Made by a program: the position numbers and the translations under genes
NCBI RefSeq assembly: GCF_019649055.1
Contig: NW_026570250.1
Location: 868,001 to 932,000 of the forward strand
From: Paramacrobiotus metropolitanus
Taxonomy: Eukaryota; Tardigrada; Eutardigrada; Parachela; Macrobiotidae
Direction: 5' to 3'
DNA: 64,000 bases
The notes under the pieces: generated by a model
The model's input: the letters and a program-made list of their open reading frames with translations, nothing else
Told to the model about the DNA's origin: nothing
Databases searched by the model: none
In this document: positions 27,299 to 53,440 of the stretch, one piece after another
Layout: every line of letters begins with the position of its first letter
How positions within the stretch are numbered: the first letter of the stretch is position 1

Positions 27299-27359
27299 AT
27301 TATTATTATTATTATTTTATATGGCGGGGCCCGCCATATAAAATAATAATAATAATAAT
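27299..27359. repeat. 61-base near-perfect palindrome
   Basis: Two 30-base arms around one G at 27329. The core is TATGGCGGG facing CCCGCCATA, flanked by ATT/AAT triplet runs that pair with each other. Simple-sequence arms plus a GC-rich tip would make a strong cruciform or hairpin. Confidence 0.9.
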
Positions 27360-28032: not shown

Positions 28033-31000
28033 ATTTCCATTCCCATTTATGCAACCGGCAAAGTGCTGAACTACTTATATAAACATCTGGATAACAATCA
28101 ATTCACAAAATTAATGGAAAGCCATTCTCTTTGTGCAACCAGGTAAGTTGACATCGCCTTATATATAGTGTAACGATAGAAAATCTCAGTACCGCCAGTT
28201 TGGATTGTTGATTGCTTTTCTACATCAGTTATTGGTTCATTCGTTCCTTGTCTTCCTCATTAAGATCATGTGAATCAGCATCTCATTGTCTTAACGATTT
28301 ACCGCTACAATCTCGATGCTCTTGACTTTTACTTTTGCGCACTAGATTTATTCTTGGATTTGCTTCTTGCCAGCTAGCTAACCTTGCTTTTTGCTTTCTT
28401 GCCCTGTGTACTTGCTAATAAGAATCTTGCCGTGACTGCCATGTCTTGCGTTGTTGTTTGTAATCACGTTGAGATGAATCGTCTCATCTCACACAGTGTA
28501 GTCGTGTAATTGTCACCTTACTTCCGGTCAGCATCGCTGCTGACCGTGCCAGCCTTTTGATTGTCAGTTAGCATTAACATCCGCTACATCGTGGTACGGT
28601 GGATTAACCATCCCACTAGAACAGCAGTTTAACCGGCTGCTGTTGCAATAGATATCGCCTGTTTTCTCGTGTCGAATGGCGATACCCGTGGTGATACCCG
28701 GAGGGTTGTCCGGTCTCCAAAGCTTGGCGATCATTTTGAGAGACGAAACAGGATTTTGTTTGTCTGTTGCATAAAGCCATAAACTAAAAACTTGCAATTC
28801 GTATGTACTGTAACTGTTTTTGATGGCGTCATAAAAAACTAGACGCTCTGACGATTCTTTGAATGCCGGTATAATTTTTAGCTTTGCAATTGAAAATTTC
28901 AGAAATTCGTGAGTCAAAAAAAGTGTTTTTGGTTAGTAATTTGCGATACTGACCAGTGAGCCGCAGTAAGTACCAAAGTCTTTATTGATAATTGATCGTG
29001 AGCAATACAGTACTAGCGTACCTACCTAGTGAAAGTGTCGTACATATCCGTCCAATGAGCCGATTTCGTTGCAGTACTCTGTACTCGGTTTCGATTTGTG
29101 GCATGCGGTTTATGGAGGAGGAGCTACCTGTTGCCTGAAATTATTCATATCTTTTGGCTTATGTGAGTGAGGGTAGCTGCAGAATGCGGATTGCGGATGC
29201 TTGGATGTTTTTCTCACAGGCTGAAAATTAGGTACTCCTTTCGATTTTCTTGAAGAAACGGTTTTGGGATTGAATAGTAATGTGTGTTTTATAAGGAGTA
29301 CTCAGATTGCTAACAGATTCCTTTTGCATAATTGTTATTGAAGTGGTGTATCTCCTTCTCGCCGTACGTACTGCATGGAAGGAGGTGGAGTGGATAGCGA
29401 AACGCGTATAAAATCTGGAATCACTGAATCTGGATGGTTATAATTGTGGACTAACTCAGTCTAACTAGGAACTAAAAATTTAAGTAAGTCACTGTAAGCT
29501 CAGGTCATATATTTTATAAACGTGCTTATTTTATAACTTTACATATTTATATTTTACATATCGAAATTATGAAATAACTGTGTAATGGATATACTTTGAG
29601 ATTGCAGGCGTTCGCTTCTTTCAAGTTTCACATAATACAATTATTTGAAAACTAGGAGTTACAGTTTGTTTGCCTGTTGTCTCTCTACCCGTTGAACTAA
29701 TGCAAGTAACAAGTACTTTGAAACGTAAAAATTGTTAAATGTGACTGTGTGCATAATTTTTAGGATTCGACTCAAGTGACTGGTCATCTGTGAGTTTAAA
29801 TCGTAATTACTGATTAAATCTTTGCTTTGGTATTTTGGTAGACTTTGCTTTGGTATTCTCAAAAAACATTAAGTATCGATGCATTGTTTGCGTGTGTTTA
29901 GCGTGAAACCGTAGATGCAATACGAGTAGTTAGGTTTAAATGTTGATGGTTGCACCTGATAACTGTGAACCAGATTTCTATGAATAATTATAATTTTTTT
30001 CATAAAAATCGATATTAAGTATTAATTTTGTTGCTGTGAGTGGTTGTTCGCCCCCGAGGAAGCGCAATAGTAGTGTCATTCTTCTATGCATTTTCTGTTA
30101 ATCAAATCGCATAAGTTATCTCTTTTTGACTGGCTTATGGTGATAATGAAACTCTATTGTATTGTGACAGATGGAAACATTTTATACAGTTTTATAAAGC
30201 TGCAAAATGCAGACGTATTATATTCTGCAATGGTAGAAACAGGATTATTGTAGCTACTCTGACTCATACTACGAGTAAACCATGGAGTAAGGATGCTATC
30301 GTTTTAAGATAACATTATAGATCTGTATTATTGGTTGGAGATTCAGATTACAGATCTTTTCCAGCATTTTCGATAATTTTTCTACGACACAAATAGGTAC
30401 CCAGATCAGATCTAGAATTGATTGCAATTTTACAATCAAGATTCAAGCCGCAGATCGTCTTGCATGTAATTATAGAACTCCGTCTGGCGTCTGAAATATA
30501 TCTGTTCGAAGAAATGTGCGAGTAGTTTTTTTAATTTTCGATTGATTTCACTTATACACTACTATGATAACTTGATGAATTGAAGATCAGTACTTTCAGG
30601 TTAGCGGTGATTGCGATAGATACAAGTACCTATCTGCTTTATACGCTACGCTACCTGTTATTATGACTCTTCCAAGCTTCTTATCTGTATACCACCTTTG
30701 GTATAAGAAGCTTAGAAAACGAATATTCTACCTGTTAATATTATAATTGGTGCATGGTATAAATATATGATAATTATCATATATTTATACCATGCACCAA
30801 TCACAGATGTGTTGTCATTTTTGTGAAACAGTGTGTTGTATGAGTGTACCGTATGAGTGTTAGCCGTGAATTATCATAATAATATTAAAAGTGGTGAGTA
30901 GTATTGAATTGAATTGCTGTTACAGATGCAACGACGTTAAAAAGTTTGGAGCATCAATACGGAAGCTCTAAACACCTTGAGCAAGCACCGTTTATACCCA

Positions 31001-41267: not shown

Positions 41268-41378
41268 TTATCCCCTAAATCTGATAAAGCCTATGAGATC
41301 AACAGCCTAGGAGGATATAAAAAACGGTTTATGAAAATGTGACAACAAAATCTGGAAAAGTCAAGAATTAAGCATGAG

Positions 41379-41501
41379 GTATACTCCAACTGAAACTGAT
41401 GGGAACGCCCCTACTGGAGCAACTGGAGGCCCGAACTGACGAATTGAACCTGTTCATTTCATCAGTTTGACTGGAGCTCCGCCCCTCCAGTTGGAGTATA
41501 C
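41379..41501. mobile_element. Short MITE, terminal inverted repeats GTATACTCCAACTG
   Basis: GTATACTCCAACTG at 41379-41392 is mirrored by CAGTTGGAGTATAC at 41488-41501. Element length is about 120 bp. A TA at each end would fit a Tc1/mariner-type target, but the TA may be part of the repeat. The interior contains further partial complements (CAACTGGAGGC, GGAGCTCC). It lies about 110 bp upstream of the Gdown1-like start codon. Confidence 0.65.
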
Positions 41502-41518
41502 ACTATGCTTTAGAGGCT

Positions 41519-42065
41519 AAACAGACTAGAGCCCTGCGCGAGCGCCGAGCCTCGGCTCGGCTCGTGAGCGCTCGCGGCTCGCGAGCCGAATGAGCGAGCT
41601 TTTACCGCTGCTAGCGCGAGCCGAGTCGAGCCGAGCGGTCGTTTATCGATGGGCGAGCGAGCCGAGCGAGCGGCAGTCAGAGGTCACGAGCGAGCTGAGC
41701 ACTGCTTTCTGTCCCGTACTATTTTTTATAGAATTTCTAGCGATTTTTTCCAAAAATGGGCGTTGGCTTCGCGCTTCGCGCGAAATAAACTGGTTTAAAT
41801 GCATGCAGCGGTGCTGCCATAAAAATGCCAAAGTACATTTTTACAATTAATCCGCATATAACTCTTGCTCGCGAGCGGTCTGAGCAGAAAAATTTGAAAT
41901 TGTCTACGAGCCGAGCGATCCGAGCAATAAGAAATCTGGACACGAGCCGAGCGAGCGAGCAGACGATTCAGCACGCGCGAGCTGAGAAAAATTTTACAAT
42001 AGTTAAAATGACACGAGCGAGCGTGAGCCAAACATTTGACGCTCGCGCAGGGCTCTAAAACAGAC
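41519..42065. mobile_element. hAT-like non-autonomous element with 8-bp target duplication
   Basis: The 18-bp repeat TAGAGCCCTGCGCGAGCG at 41527-41544 recurs as its reverse complement at 42040-42057. The element is flanked by the direct repeat AAACAGAC at 41519-41526 and 42058-42065. Eight-bp duplications and short repeats are typical of hAT transposons. The 531-bp interior is filled at both ends with GAGC/GCTC words (subterminal motifs, a known hAT trait) and has no transposase, so it is a MITE needing an enzyme from elsewhere. Confidence 0.85.
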
Positions 42066-45154: not shown

Positions 45155-48100
45155 ATGAGCGGAGAAAAACCCCCAGCGGAGCGTCGCCTGACGCTGGCTT
45201 GTGTTGTGGACCTCTTGGCACCTGAAGGCCTCAATGCCCGCCAAAAGGCATACGACGATGTGGTGCGAGCGGCCAAGGACTACAAAATTAATACATATCG
45301 GATAGAATTCGACAAGCTGGAGAATTCTAAAGAGACTGCAGTGTTGGATCTGATGTATAGTGCCGATGTTGCCATTGTGGATATGTCGATAAGCAGTCAG
45401 CAGATTGCTCTGTCCGGCCAACTCGGAGCACGGGAGCGCTTCGGGATGCAGGGGAATTTTGTGATTTATAATAGTGAATCTGTCCATGGAGTCTTCAAAT
45501 CCAGCATCGGTAAGGTTTCAGATACGATATTCTGTTGAATGCGTGAACCTGGGCTCCTTGAGTCGTCCAGCTTGTTAAATTTTGCAAAACTTTCACACTA
45601 ATACATATCTATATGATAGCTAGTACATGTTTGAGGCGCATTGATAGTTTTGACACTGTTTGTAAAATGTTAGCGCTGTGCTTGTGGTATATATAACCTT
45701 ATTCTGATACTTGTGCAGTATTTGTTTTACAGTATTTCGTTCGTAATATTATTCTGCAGAGTTGTTAAGTTTGAATAATTTAAAATGTATTGGAGTTGGT
45801 TAGTTAATTTATTGATGCATTGTTGCAGGTGGATCTGGAATGAATAGCATTGGGTATTCGTTGTCGGAAGACGGTGAGCGGTGCGTTGTCACCGATTCAT
45901 GGATGGCCGACTCTGGAATTAATTTATATTCAAAGCTCAAACAGCTGCTCAAGGATGTTCAGGTTACAACATCCACTCATGCGAAGGAAAAATTTCTCGA
46001 TGATCTCCGAAAAGTGCGAGAGATGCCGCATGATCAGCTGAAACCGGAACTGGATAAACTTCGGCAGAAAATGAACTTGGATCCGGTGTTGCTGTCGCCG
46101 GAAATTGTCTTTAATCTGCTTATGTCGTACAGGTATGCGGTTATTGGGATAGTAAACAGGAAAGTGTAGATCTGTAAGAGTTGCTTTATTAGACCTGCCT
46201 AAATTTACGGTCTGCAGAACTTGCAACAAATACCTTCGTTTCACTCGTAGTCGAAGTATAATTCAAGTATTACACTATTTAATACTTACCTTTTAAACAT
46301 CTAATGTACTGGTGTACTCGGTACCGTATACCTATACCGCTAAAGAGCATTTGATGTACCTTGATAGTTCCGATTCATGATTTTCGGTTGTTTTTACTGA
46401 ATTAATCTTTTACATCATTTTTCGTTTTCTGAACAGAGACATTCAGGATCATGATACCATGATCAGTATTATGGATGGCGTGCAGTCCCGACAGGATGAA
46501 CCGAACGCTCAGCAATGCCTGCAGCCGGATTTCATGTACTGGTATTGCTTTGCTCTGAATCGCCGGAATAAGCCTGGCGATCGCGATAAAGCGCTGTTGA
46601 TTATGGAGAGAGACGCCACAGATCTCCAGTACGTTGTTCCGGATGCCCTGTGTTTATGCGGACGAATCTATAAAGACATGTTTGTGGAGAGCGAGTGTAA
46701 AAACAGGGATTATATCGCTAAAGCGATTGAATGGTACAGGAAGGGTTTTGCGGTTAGTGATATACAACTTTTCTCGTGTAATCATTTATTTTGTTGGTTT
46801 CGTTGGCTTTCAGGGTAAACCTAATGAGTTTGCTGGTATCAACCTTGCTACCCTATTGGTGGTTTCTGGAGACAAATTTGACAGTTCCAGTGAATTGCAA
46901 TCAGTTTTGATGCAGTTGAACCATATGATCAGTCGCAAAGGCAGTCTGGAGTTGCTGCAGGAATACTGGACAGTGGCGACGTTTTTCGAGATGCAGGTGC
47001 TATCGGATGATTATCGTAAAGCCTGTCAGGCAGCGGAATGCATGTACCGCTTGAAACCGCAAGGATGGATGATCCGCACTACCATGCAGAATATTAGATT
47101 GATTGAGCAATCGCGCCGGGCAATTGCGAAGGTACATATATATGTGCATCTTTTGTGAATGCCCCGTATAATTTATGGGCGAATTATGATTAGATAATTT
47201 AGATTGTTATATGTACAGTAGCACCTAAGAATATTAATTACGAGACCAAATCAACTGACCCTTCCTACATGACGTTTTCATGGTGAATACTCGTATCTCG
47301 TAATTTGGTTTAATTCAAACTTTTGCAGGGAAATGATTCTGTAGCCAGTTCTCGTAGTAGTTCCATCGCAGTGGAAGATGATGAGGATCTGTACCGGTTT
47401 TGGTTGGAATTCTTCGAGGACAGTTACGTGCCTCGTCCGGATACGGCTCACTTTCCCGTGTTAATTTTAGACGACAATCCTGAACGGCACTACATATCGT
47501 TTTATGTGACTATCAATGTCACCGAAGAAACTGCCGCTGATCGGACCATCAAGTTCTGGCAGTCAGGATGCACGGAAGGGATTGAATACTTACTGAAGCC
47601 GGAGCATGTCAAGAGCGCGGCGCTTAATCGGCAAGACGAGCGTTGTTTGTTTTTATATGTCGCCTATCCGTTCTCCGAGAATCTGCAAGTGTACTTCTCG
47701 TCTGGAAATCAGCGCGATCGGTTCCATGCATTGTGCAAGGAATTTCTCAGTTCCACTGACGATTATGTAGATCTGGATGATGATGGCCCGGCGATGATGT
47801 ACGATTATGAATATGACAAGAATGGGCAGAGAGTATTACTGGGCAGTGGCACATTTGGAAGGGTGTATGCAGCGAAGAACGCTAACACCCAGGTGAAGAT
47901 GGCAGTGAAAGAGATTCGAGTAACGAACGATGCTGCTGTACAGCTACTGCACGATGAAATCAAACTCCACTCGAAACTGCATCATAAGAATATCGTGCAG
48001 TACCATGGATCCGTGTACGAAAATGGCTTCTTTAAGATCTTCATGGAACAAGTACCTGGCGGCAGTTTATCAGATTTACTACGGGGATGGGGTCCACTAA

Positions 48101-51100
48101 AAGGCAACGAAATGGCCATCGCGTTTTATAGTCGGCAAATATTAGAGGGACTGCGATATTTGCATGACCAAAAGATTGTCCATCGTGACATTAAAGGAGG
48201 CAACGTGCTAGTGAACACTTTTAGTGGCGTCTTGAAAATCTCTGATTTCGGTACCAGCAAACGTTTGTCCGGTTTGAACTCTAATGCCAGCTCTTTCAAA
48301 GGAACGTTCCAGTATATGGCACCGGAAGTTATCGACGCCCAGGGTCAACGAGGCTACGCTGCCCCGGCGGATATTTGGTCATTCGGATGTACCGTCATTG
48401 AAATGGCTCAGGGAAAACCTCCATTTAGCGAGATACAGTCGCCGGTAGCAGCAATGTTTTTAGTGGGAAGAAATAAAAGCCATCCTATGATTCCTGAAGA
48501 ACTGGGTACTGAATGCCGAGAATTTATTCTGTCTACATTCTGTTCCAATCCGGCGGACCGGTTGACGGCAGCATGTTTATTAAAGCACCCTTTTTTGCGG
48601 GAGGCCAACAAGAAACGGCAACGCAACAACTCGGTGACTTCTCTGAACGGCAGTATGTCGAGAAGCCATTCGGTACCGCCCGCGGATTCTGTTGATGCTA
48701 GTACACTAGAAGCTCGCGAATTGGTAAGATACGATAACGAGTGAAATAGTGATTTAGAGTACTAGTACCTAATTTGAAAAGGCAAATATTTATATATTGT
48801 ACATGGTATAGTACTTCTAGCTGTCTATCCGTAAATCGCCTTCTTACAATGCGAGTTCATTCGTCCGTGTTGATAATCTTACATATTAAGCGGCAGGAGT
48901 CGTAACGCGACCGCCTCCAAATCCCTCTCATTGGTCAAAACCAAAATATATACTAAACGAAGTGAACCTACTGAACAAACTCACAACTGTAGTGAACCTG
49001 CTGAACACACTTACTAAACACAATGACAGCTGAACCCACCAAAACCTTAGTGAACCAGATGAACCCAACCGAAAAGTTGGCGAACCGACTGAACCCAACC
49101 AAAGCCTTACTGAATCAGCCGAACCCAACCTAATCCTCAGTGAACCGACTGAACCCAACCGAAAAGTTAGCGAACCGACTGAACCCAACCAAAACCGTAC
49201 TGAACCAGCCGAACCCAACCTAAAACTTAGTGACCTGACTGAACCCAACCTAAAACTTAGTGAACTGACTGAACCCGACCAAAACCTGATTGAACCAACT
49301 GAACCCAACGGAAAAAATAGCGAACCGACTGAACCCAACCAAAACCCTACTGAACCAGCCGAACCCAACCAAAAACTTAGTGAACTGACTGAACCCGACG
49401 AACCTGATTGAACCAACTGAACCCAACGGAAAAGATAGCGAACCAACTGAACCAACCAGAGCCTTAGTGAACCCGCTGAACCCAAACTAATACTTCGTTA
49501 ACTGACTGAACCCGACCAAAACCTGATTGAACCAACTGAACCCAACGGAAAAGATAGCGAACCAACTGAACCCAACCAGAACCTTAGTAAACCCGCTGAA
49601 CCCAAACTAATGCTTCGTGAACCGACTGAACCCAACCGAAAAGTTAGTGAACCCACTGAACCAAACTAAAACCTTTCTGAACCAGCCGAACCCAACCGTG
49701 AGCCGACTGAACCCAATCAAACCTTACTGAACCGAAGGGAACTGACGGAACCCAACAAGAAAGTTACTGAACCCAACCTAATCCTAACTGAACCGACTGA
49801 ACCCAATCGAAAAGTTAGTGAACCGATTAAACCATACCTTACTAAACCGACCTACGAATAAACATCTGAACTTATTTAATTAATTACTCAACAAAGTGAA
49901 CCTGCTGAAAATAATAGTAACAAAATAAACCTGCTAAATTCACTAACTAAGCGAATTAAACCTACTATACGGACTTACTAAACTTACTACAGAACGTAAC
50001 CTACTGAACATCTTACCGAATTAAACTAAATTACTTCATTAATTTCCCACTTAATAAATCGAATTCACTAAATAAATTAAATAAAATAAATTAAAATGAA
50101 ATATCTTAATTAAATAAATAATTGATAAATAATTTATTAAAGTAGTTAATTTTTTACTAACTAAATTCAAGTAAGTAACTAGATAAATTGCAATCATTAA
50201 AACAATTAAAATTAAATAAATAAAATAAATAAGTTGAATAAATAAAACAGCTAACCTAAACAAATTAAAATAAAATTAATAAAATATTTCGAATAAAATA
50301 AACTATAATTAGCTGAACCAACGAGATACTATAAAGTACGTAATTTACAACATCGTTAACCCATTGAACTAATTGAATAGACAAAGTAAATCTCCTCAAC
50401 ATACTTACTAAGCGAATTAAAATTACTAATCCAACTCATTAATGTAACTAAACCCACTGAACTAAACAAAATAAACTTACCAAACAGCTTGCCAAAGAAA
50501 AATGCTGTAACGGATATAACTTACTAAACACAGTGCACTTATTGAAACAACTGAACAAACATAGTGGACCTGCTCAATAAACTTACTAAGCGAATTAAGG
50601 GTGGGTCTAAGGTAGCACACGGGTGGGTCTCAGAAAGTAACCCCAAGAAAGTAAACGGCGTAATGTAATCACGCAAGAGTAAGCGGCGTAACGTGAGCAC
50701 ACGAGAGTAAGCGGCGCAAAGTAACCACAGGAAAGTGAACGGCGTAACGTAACCACAAGAGAGTTAGCAGCGCAAAATAACCACAAGAGAGCGAGCGGCA
50801 CAAATTAACCACAAGAGAGTAAGCGGCGAAGAGTAACCACAATAAATTGAGCAGCGCAAAGTAACCACACTAGACTGAGCGGCGTAACGTAACCACAAGA
50901 GAGTCAACGGCGCAAAGTAACCACAAGAAATCGGGCGACGTAACGTAACCACAAGAAAGTCAACGGCGCAAAATAACTACAAGAAATTGAGCGGCGTAAC
51001 GTGAGCACGGGAAAGTGAGCGACGTATAATAATCACAAGAGAGTGAGCCGCGTGACGTGAACACGGGAAAGTAAGCTACGTAACGTAACCTACGAGTGAG

Positions 51101-53440
51101 CGGCGTAACGCAACCACAAGCGAGGGAGAGGCGTAAGTTGACCACAAGAGAGTGAGCGGCGTAACGTAACCACAAGAAAGTCGACGCCGCAAAGTAACCA
51201 CAAGAATTTGAGCGGCGTAATGTGTGCACGGAAAGGGGAGCGACGTAACGTAACCACAAGAAAGTGAGCTGCGCAAAGTAAACACAAGAAGTTGGGCGGC
51301 ATAACGTAACCACAAGAGAGTGAGTGGCGTAACGTGATTGCAAGAAAGTGATCGGCGTAACGTAACCACAAGAGACTGAACGGCGTAACGTAACCGCAAG
51401 AGAGTGAGCGGCGTAACGTAACAACGAGAGAGTGAACTGCGCAATGTAACCACAAGACAGTGACTAGCAAAACGTAACCACAAGAGAGTGAACAGCGCAA
51501 CGTATCCACAAGGGAGTAAGCGCCGCAATGTATCCACAAGAGAGTAAGCGGCGCAGTGTAACCACAAGAGAGTGAACGGCGTAACGTAGCCACAAGAGAG
51601 TAGGCGGCAATGTAACCGCACTAAAGTGAGCGGGGTAACGTAACCACAAGAGGGTGAGCGGCGTAACGTAACCACAAAAGAGCAAGCGGCGTAACGTAAC
51701 CACAAAGAGTGAACGGCGCAACGTAATCGCAAGATGTTGATCGGCGTAACGTAACCACAAAAGAGTAAGCGGTGTAACATAACCCCAAGAAAGTAAGCGG
51801 CGCAACGTAACCACAAGAGTGTAAGCATACGCGATTAATTAGCGTAAGGTGCCTTAAGCACACACGAGAGTAGTGGCATAAGGTCACCACAAAAGAGCAA
51901 GCGACGAAACGTAAACCAAGAGATTGAGCGGCGTAACTTAACCACAAAACAGTGAGCGCCGTAACGTAACCGCAAAAGAGCAAGCGGCGTAACGTAACCA
52001 CAAAGAGTGAACGGCGCAACGTAATCGCAAGATGTTGATCGGCGTAACGTAACCACAAAAGAGTAAGCGGTGTAACATAACCCCAAGAAAGTAAGCGGCG
52101 CAACGTAACCACAAGAGTGTAAGCATACGCGATTAATTAGCGTAAGGTGCCTTAAGCACACGAGAGTAGTGGCATAAGGTCACCACAAAAGAGCAAGCGA
52201 TGAAACGTAAACCAAGAGATTGAGCGGCGTAACTTAACCAAAAGAGACTAAGGGCCGTAACAAAATCACGTTAAAGTAAACGATGTAATTTAACCACACG
52301 ATAGTTAACAGCGCAACGTAACCTTCGGTGGATACCGCGGCGCGTAGCGCGCCGCGGTCGTTGCTAGTACTGTATAGTGTATACTATGATGTACATGATA
52401 TTCTAGAATAAGAATCGAAGGATGTTTGTTCGTTGTGTCACTTGTATGTAAAATTGTTTGTCATAAAAATTAATTATCTGCGAATAATGTTATATCTCAA
52501 AACAATTTATAGCAAAAACGAATTTAGCTAGAAGCAAACGTTTGTGCCTTGGTGCGCAAATTGAATTTTGATGCAAAAGCAGACAGTCAGAATTATTAAT
52601 TTTTTGACTTCAATTTAGTTCTCTAAAAAATTAATCGTCTTGTCTGTGGTTGGTCACACGCATTTGTTTCAGGTGGAAAAGGGTGTCGGAACTTCTAATC
52701 CTTCATCTGCAGCCGTTCCCACCAGCCCTCAACCCGAGCAGGAAATATCCGGCTCGTACTGGAAACGTAAGCACAACGAAACCCAGATCGCTTTGCTAGC
52801 TCTCTTGGAGACGGAGCGTCCCGTGTTGATTGACCGCATGATGGAGTCTTTCGAAAACAACAATAAGGATGGCGGAGCGTTGATCGATTGTGCATCCATA
52901 GAAACTATGATTCGTTTGGTGGAGAAGTGCATTCAGAGTGAAGAGGGTGGTCGTGTTGGAGCTAAGATTGTGATTGAAGATTTTAAGGGATCCATCGCAC
53001 CTACTGAACATAATCGCTTATTGAAACAGCTGCAGTTGTTTTTGTTCCTATTGAAGCGCGAAGTGCAGGATGTGCTACGGAATCGCAGTATTAAGCCGCA
53101 TTGGATGTTTGCGTTTGATGATATGATCTCACGTAGCGTACAGATTATTCTGCAGCAAATGGGGATGAGTTTTGATGACACTGACTCGGAGCCGGAAAAG
53201 CGGGAATACACGTCACAAACATCGACTTCGCCCGGGAGTTACGGACAGGCACCGTATGAACAAGCGCTGGCCCGGTTCATCAAGATGCAGTGCGGGACAG
53301 CGGAAATTTTTGAATTGTTAATCAAAGCGGAGGAAAGGTATCAGGCGGTGTTACGACAAATGCTGGAGGAGAAAAATCGTGCAATAGCGTTAGCGGAATC
53401 GCAGCGTTTTGGCAGCACGGGATCCACAGGCTCGCAGTGA
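45155..53440 (+). CDS. ASK-type MAP kinase kinase kinase (MAP3K5/6/15)
   Basis: Stress-activated kinase acting upstream of p38 and JNK. Six exons (45155-45509, 45829-46132, 46437-46752, 46814-47131, 47329-48723, 52673-53440) give 1,151 residues. The N-terminal thioredoxin-binding and central regulatory parts are recognisable ([50 protein letters not shown]). The kinase domain has GSGTFGRV (from residue 603), Lys625, HRDIKGGN (Asp718), DFGTSKR (Asp737) and GTFQYMAPE. The position matching human Thr838 of the activation loop is Ser753. The C-terminal part after the kinase includes [16 protein letters not shown] and a coiled-coil stretch ([20 protein letters not shown]), but the chain ends at GSTGSQ without the SAM domain of human ASK1 (1,374 aa). 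Intron 5 is 3.95 kb and filled with satellite. Reading into it would add six residues and a stop, giving a protein of about 902 aa that keeps the kinase. Confidence 0.96.
48956..49860. repeat. Tandem array, about 30-bp unit
   Basis: About 30 imperfect copies of a 30-bp unit with the words GAACCCAACC, GAAAAGTTAG and TGAACCGACT, inside intron 5 of the ASK gene. The plus strand is strongly A/C-rich and T-poor. The minus strand therefore shows an open frame with a 10-residue period ([10 protein letters not shown]-like) at 49485-48928, which is a by-product of the repeat. Unit sequence drifts toward both ends. Confidence 0.93.
49861..50590. repeat. AT-rich low-complexity block
   Basis: Runs of AATTAAATAAATAA-like sequence between the two arrays, with scattered degenerate words of the 30-bp unit (CTGAACAAAC, GAACCTGCTGAA). 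It looks like decayed array sequence plus AT-rich expansion. Confidence 0.7.
50591..52330. repeat. Tandem array, 28-bp unit
   Basis: About 60 imperfect copies of a 28-bp unit with the words GTAACCACAAGAG and GAGCGGCGTAAC, still inside intron 5 of the ASK gene. It is unrelated in sequence to the 30-bp array. Because 28 is not a multiple of three, each minus-strand frame repeats every 28 residues, with words such as [17 protein letters not shown]. Overlapping long frames result, up to 250 codons at 51828-51076. These are not called as genes. Confidence 0.93.
51661..52245. repeat. 298-bp higher-order duplication in the 28-bp array
   Basis: A block containing the distinctive words GATGTTGATCGGCG (51733 and 52031) and GCATACGCGATTAATTAGCG (51826 and 52124) occurs twice at an offset of 298 bp. 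The two copies are nearly identical, with a 2-base deletion (CACACACG versus CACACG) in the second. This duplication is far younger than the unit repeats. Confidence 0.85.
52334..52358. repeat. GC-rich hairpin at the array end
   Basis: ACCGCGGCGCG, loop TAG, then CGCGCCGCGGT. It marks the right edge of the 28-bp array. Confidence 0.9.

Follow-up and report, generated by a model that had tools for sequence, protein, structure and literature searches.

A putative Helitron filled with two unrelated minisatellite arrays in the last intron of an ASK-type kinase gene

The last intron of an ASK-type MAP3K gene holds two tandem arrays of unlike units side by side, which raises the question of how this intron was enlarged and whether it marks a special site. 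A sequence-only reading of the window (the whole stretch of DNA analysed, 64 kb long) had offered two answers, namely an expansion-prone site that gave rise to two independent minisatellites, or a transcript feature tolerated or selected on the sense strand. Our analysis indicates that intron 5 was probably enlarged by one non-autonomous Helitron of the canonical type (TC...CTRR), lying in the sense direction between A and T at about 48877-52367. This assignment, drawn from the sequence, rests on the putative 3' signature and on its position at the edge of an array. The coordinates of all features are given in Table 1.

Table 1. Positions of the gene, the arrays and the proposed mobile elements in the 64-kb window
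Feature	Position	Strand	Description
ASK-type MAP3K gene	45155..53440	+	six exons, ATG 45155 to TGA 53438-53440; spliced translation open, five GT-AG introns
Intron 5 (last)	48724..52672	+	phase 0, 3949 bp, GTAAGA donor, TTTCAG acceptor, frame continues across
Proposed non-autonomous Helitron	48877..52367	+	about 3491 bp, A/TC...CTAG/T; 5' end is one of four A/TC sites
Candidate 5' terminal region	48877..48956	+	80 bp, unrepeated, starts with TC after A
Array A	48957..49850	+	30-bp unit, about 30 copies by length; outer limits by eye
AT-rich middle	49851..50636	+	delimited by composition; degenerate A-like motifs at edges (by eye)
Array B	50637..52323	+	28-bp unit; copy number about 60, estimated from length with decayed copies counted; right-hand limit set by eye
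Near-identical duplication inside array B	51662..52261	+	51662-51965 versus 51960-52261
3' terminal hairpin	52334..52358	+	25 nt; 11-bp stem, 91% GC; 3-nt loop
CTAG 3' terminus	52364..52367	+	followed by T (52368); only CTRRT in 52300-52672
MITE-like element	41527-42057		perfect 18-bp terminal inverted repeats; perfect 8-bp flanking duplication AAACAGAC

To place the intron, we analysed the gene that contains it. When the exons were joined across the five predicted introns, the spliced translation gave one open protein, and Pfam scans of exons 1, 5 and 6 found the kinase and ASK_PH domains in exon 5, a HisK-N-like domain in exon 6 and no match in exon 1. Among the best 60 of 2768 PDB matches of exon 5, the 13 best relatives, counted as distinct sequences, are MAP3K5 chains, and for exon 6 alone the single PDB match (E 0.36) was not convincing. 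The three domains and the PDB relatives together identify the protein as a member of the ASK (MAP3K5-like) group. A search of viral contigs with the kinase exon pattern returned four matches, none of them a relative. Since ASK domains lie on both sides of intron 5 and the frame is open across it, exons 5 and 6 are parts of a single gene. The introns measure, in order, 319, 304, 61, 197 and 3949 bp, which confirms the earlier description of a compact gene with other introns of about 60-320 bp (61-319 bp by our measurement) and makes intron 5 over ten times the length of the next-longest. Pfam also found further exons in the window, of Beclin (BARA and coiled-coil), LLGL-type, MFS and LLP-homolog genes, and this gene content points to DNA of an animal. 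Among the non-coding features, the MITE-like element at 41527-42057, hAT-like by the length of its 8-bp duplication, is filled with GC-rich repeats of the GAGCCGAGCGAGC type and adjoins a short inverted-repeat element (41370-41510) whose 23-bp arms are 87% complementary. Additionally, two long perfect AT-rich palindromes are located at 27299-27359 (29-bp stem) and 30746-30801 (27-bp stem).

The composition of the intron agrees with the first description of it, in which a 30-bp unit repeated about 30 times is followed by an AT-rich block and a 28-bp unit repeated about 60 times, as judged by TRF and by reading the sequence by eye. The tandem-repeat search that had been proposed as a check recovered both arrays, the 30-bp array at 49030-49697 with 70% matches and the 28-bp array at 50637-52124 with 73% at a 56-bp period. 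The copy numbers of about 30 and about 60 were derived from array length, with decayed copies included by eye; single-unit nhmmer searches (E up to 10) gave fewer matches, 21 in A and 49 in B, all of them on the + strand and the last one in B ending at 52260. In array A the identity between positions is 0.64 at lag 30 (over 48957-49697), 0.61 at lag 60 and 0.60 at lag 90, and in array B it is 0.67 at lag 28 (over 50637-52124), 0.64 at lag 56 and 0.58 at lag 84, dropping to 0.41 at lag 28 in the right part of the array (52125-52330). The AT-rich middle shows weak periodicity at lags 9 and 31. Calling these arrays satellites was thus loose, since they are minisatellites whose neighbouring units are about 64-67% identical. 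Both also contain longer and newer-looking copies: the duplication of about 300 bp inside B has 294 identities, 8 mismatches and 2 gap columns in 304 columns, and three duplicated pairs inside A, picked by eye at offsets of about 90-120 bp, have 103/120, 114/123 and 92/101 identities. From these comparisons the arrays look like old, diverged repeats with newer multi-unit duplications. At the junction of the A-like region with array B, GGGTGGGTCT occurs twice, 22 bp apart (50599-50630).

The statement that the two units share no sequence is fair. A cyclic alignment brought AACC-A-AA and AGTGA into the same order with a score of 8 (0 for the reverse complement), and this weak co-linear resemblance was matched by 26 of 400 mononucleotide and 25 of 400 dinucleotide shuffles, so that a common origin of the units was rejected; a second consensus of unit A scored only 7. 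Strict local alignment of the units found nothing, with 405/1000 and 449/1000 shuffles equally good.

As had been claimed, the sense strand of each array is poor in T: this base makes up 13.5% of array A and 12.5% of array B, compared with 30.4% of the whole window, and the A content of the arrays is 38-39%. Outside the intron, the lower of T and A never fell below 19% in 1181 windows of 500 bp. The AT-rich middle (47.7% A, 27.7% T) is A-rich and not T-poor. C exceeds G in array A and G exceeds C in array B, and these opposite skews leave an excess of A over T as the only bias common to the arrays; the agreement in sign of two skews is worth about 1 bit. A segment fit to A over T, with an offset of our choosing, spans 48937-52283, whereas a single-segment fit to T content selects array B alone (50614-52269), and the edges of the skew therefore fit the proposed element by the A-over-T measure only. 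If a rolling-circle element is presumed, multicopy families would allow a test of the A-over-T bias that runs across its unrelated arrays.

The right edge of the block formed by the arrays and the middle provides the main evidence for a Helitron. B-type sequence continues to 52323 and is followed by TTCGGTGGAT, the hairpin at 52334-52358, CGTTG, CTAG and T, so that array B ends about 10 bp before the hairpin and the hairpin 5 nt before CTAG. Perfect hairpins with a stem of at least 10 bp and a loop of 2-8 nt gave 17 rows in the window, representing six sites, and this one alone has a stem GC above 0.55 (0.91). As single-stranded DNA it folds at -17.5 kcal/mol (z -3.85), a stability reached by 0 of 200 shuffles. 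The window has one hairpin followed by CTRRT on its + strand and none on its - strand; 60 simulated windows (3.84 Mb, + strand only) yielded 2 in all. The signature was spotted post hoc, so that its apparent rarity is somewhat exaggerated, and the analyst's estimate of the chance that CTRRT falls within 3-14 nt of a hairpin is about 5%. By another hairpin/CTRR score, the site at 52334 reached 16, compared with at most 11.5 in 20 other simulations, two of which had a match (10 and 11.5); this looser score also picked one further, weaker site in the window, at 41529 on the - strand (11.5), at the edge of the GC-rich MITE.

The left end is less sharply defined. The left flank contains four A/TC sites (48828, 48836, 48877 and 48922), of which 48877 lies 80 bp before the start of array A at 48957, and it was preferred partly on what we take to be its likeness to other Helitron starts. 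The region 48877-48956 has a DNA fold with z -2.62 (4 of 200 shuffles equally stable). In our judgement the placing of the 5' end at 48877 is uncertain and the weakest part of the model. Removal of 48877-52367 would leave an intron of 458 bp.

In published descriptions of Helitron ends (PMC4683698; PMC8969392), canonical elements begin with TC, end with CTRR, carry a GC-rich hairpin of 15-20 bp about 10-12 bp from the 3' end and lie in an A/T target. At the 3' end the intron has CTAG and then T at 52364-52368, and the hairpin ends 9 nt from the terminus, slightly nearer than published. Canonical elements are also without terminal inverted repeats, and when 48820-48960 was compared with 52300-52400 the longest inverted match was 7 bp exact, or 9 with one mismatch. 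None of the seven stop-free frames of at least 120 residues in the block has a Pfam match above the cut-off (one without a match, six sub-threshold, the best at E 0.0041 to a DUF). These frames include no Rep/Hel, which makes the putative element non-autonomous at most. A search of the window that allowed up to 3 mismatches revealed no further copy of the 5' end, and self-BLAST, after matches within 48900-52400 had been dropped, revealed no second copy of the block. Searches in collections not expected to hold animal DNA gave 0 matches for the unit A pattern (prokaryote contigs), the unit B pattern (prokaryote and viral contigs) and the hairpin-end and 5'-end patterns (viral contigs).

These data suggest a simple course of events. 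A Rep/Hel enzyme encoded elsewhere in the genome would recognise the 5' TC end, the element would be copied until copying stops at the 3' hairpin and CTAG end, and the copy would be placed in intron 5. It would have carried an interior with no recognisable gene, consisting of an AT-rich spacer between two minisatellite arrays of unrelated units. Slippage or unequal exchange would have duplicated blocks of units, either after insertion or in the parent copy, and the element would be excised with the intron, most likely being without function for the kinase. This suggests that one insertion could lengthen a compact intron to over ten times the size of its neighbours.

The strongest alternative is that slippage produced the two minisatellites where they now lie, in an intron under no constraint on its length, and that the hairpin and CTAG are a coincidence. 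Multi-unit duplications in both arrays, the greater likeness of nearer units in both and the single-copy state of the block in the window are all consistent with it, and the part of the sequence-only reading that invoked an expansion-prone site is borne out to this extent, since both arrays do lie in one intron and show real local expansion. However, slippage leaves the adjacency of two unrelated arrays unexplained, as well as the GC-rich hairpin and CTAG at the right edge, where the segment ends in a terminus of the Helitron type. Because the arrays and the middle fill a segment with such an end, a Helitron would explain the unrelated arrays lying side by side in one step. We therefore consider growth in place unlikely; the local expansion of the arrays is real but would be a secondary process.

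A second possibility, which we regard as improbable, is that the arrays belong to a mobile element of another kind, such as a TIR transposon, whose 8-bp target duplication would be TGTACATG. This exact direct repeat flanks the block at 48798-48805 and 52390-52397 and, if extended, is alike in 11 of 12 bp by eye, but about 0.25 such repeats would be expected (analyst's estimate), which is within chance. An inverted 11-nt pair (48755-48765 and 52364-52374, 10 of 11 pairing) was found among the 25 of 30 pairs listed, but it does not adjoin TGTACATG, and its left arm is outside the proposed Helitron. A hAT-like MITE whose 8-bp duplication is perfect does occur elsewhere in the window (41527-42057); the end regions of the block share at most the short inverted match given above.

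Slightly less probable still is that selection maintains the block as part of the transcript, its T-poor RNA, the AATAAA motifs of the middle and the GTRAG motifs of array B acting in regulated intronic polyadenylation or as a splicing decoy to give a kinase without its C-terminal part. AATAAA occurs 14 times on the sense and once on the antisense strand of the middle, and GTRAG 27 times against 0 in array B, but such counts follow from an A-rich, T-poor composition, and GTRAG is reversed in array A (1 sense, 5 antisense) and in the middle (1 sense, 7 antisense). Array A and the middle fold less on the sense strand, but array B folds about alike on both. Crude 3' splice sites number 0 on the sense strand of the block, compared with 1.66 per kb on the + strand elsewhere in the window, but the antisense strand also has few (1, with 0.86 per kb elsewhere). 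With a contrast of 0 sense to 1 antisense in 3.37 kb, selection against cryptic sense 3' splice sites was rejected, and the T-poor sequence accounts for the depletion on that strand. No known RNA family reached the Rfam gathering score in the block. A coding function of the arrays was rejected as well: their longest open frames (180 residues in A, 252 in B) are reached by plain shuffles in only 7/300 and 4/300 cases, but arrays simulated as diverged, with composition and period kept, reach them in 181/300 and 69/300, so that periodicity and composition suffice. The splice-site, folding, motif, frame, Rfam and Pfam tests thus revealed no convincing transcript function, and of the earlier suggestion of a feature tolerated or selected on the sense strand, selection has thin support, the signals mostly following composition. 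Least probable of all, by a little, is that the Helitron was kept in the sense direction as a T-poor, AATAAA-rich intronic polyadenylation switch that yields an ASK kinase without the C-terminal HisK-N-like region.

Comparison with known elements indicates that Helitrons filled with repeats have been described in several organisms. In the published account of the oyster Cg_HINE, a non-autonomous Helentron, satellite-like arrays lie between two short end modules, exceptionally come from two clusters in a row and are accompanied by a 3' palindrome, as in the block; being of the Helentron type, it differs in having subterminal inverted repeats of 11-12 bp and a microsatellite (PMC7492417). Repeats of that length are absent between 48820-48960 and 52300-52400 (longest match 7 bp exact, 9 with one mismatch). 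HelitronY4_CE, from the animal C. elegans, likewise carries tandem repeats of two kinds, of 15 and 40 bases, and is intronic, being located in the introns that flank alternate exons of R11A5.4 (PMC4039745); its units differ by eye from those found here, and the likeness drawn concerns the repeats. It was met in introns examined for splicing, and the author drew no splicing conclusion from it, one gene being involved (PMC4039745).

A further parallel is DHH_Mothra, a non-autonomous Helitron of rice, which has TC...CTAG ends and a 3' hairpin, with two different consecutive blocs of tandem repeats filling the interior (PMC4683698). Its bloc A starts at about position 80, just as array A starts 80 bp after 48877, and is followed by bloc B, the hairpin and CTAG; differences in repeat number were attributed by the authors to slippage or unequal crossing-over (PMC4683698). 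Mothra is a plant element of 1.25-2.7 kb with six long repeats per bloc and 1,682 elements (PMC4683698), whereas the block in intron 5 is an animal sequence of about 3.5 kb with about 30 and about 60 short repeats and one copy within the 64-kb window. Repeat-filled Helitrons are thus already known, and by analogy the block in intron 5 would be another such element. Since the kind is known, the presence of a second, unrelated array does not call for a special site: a transposon could deliver two unrelated minisatellites together, and adjacent arrays need not mark a fragile site.
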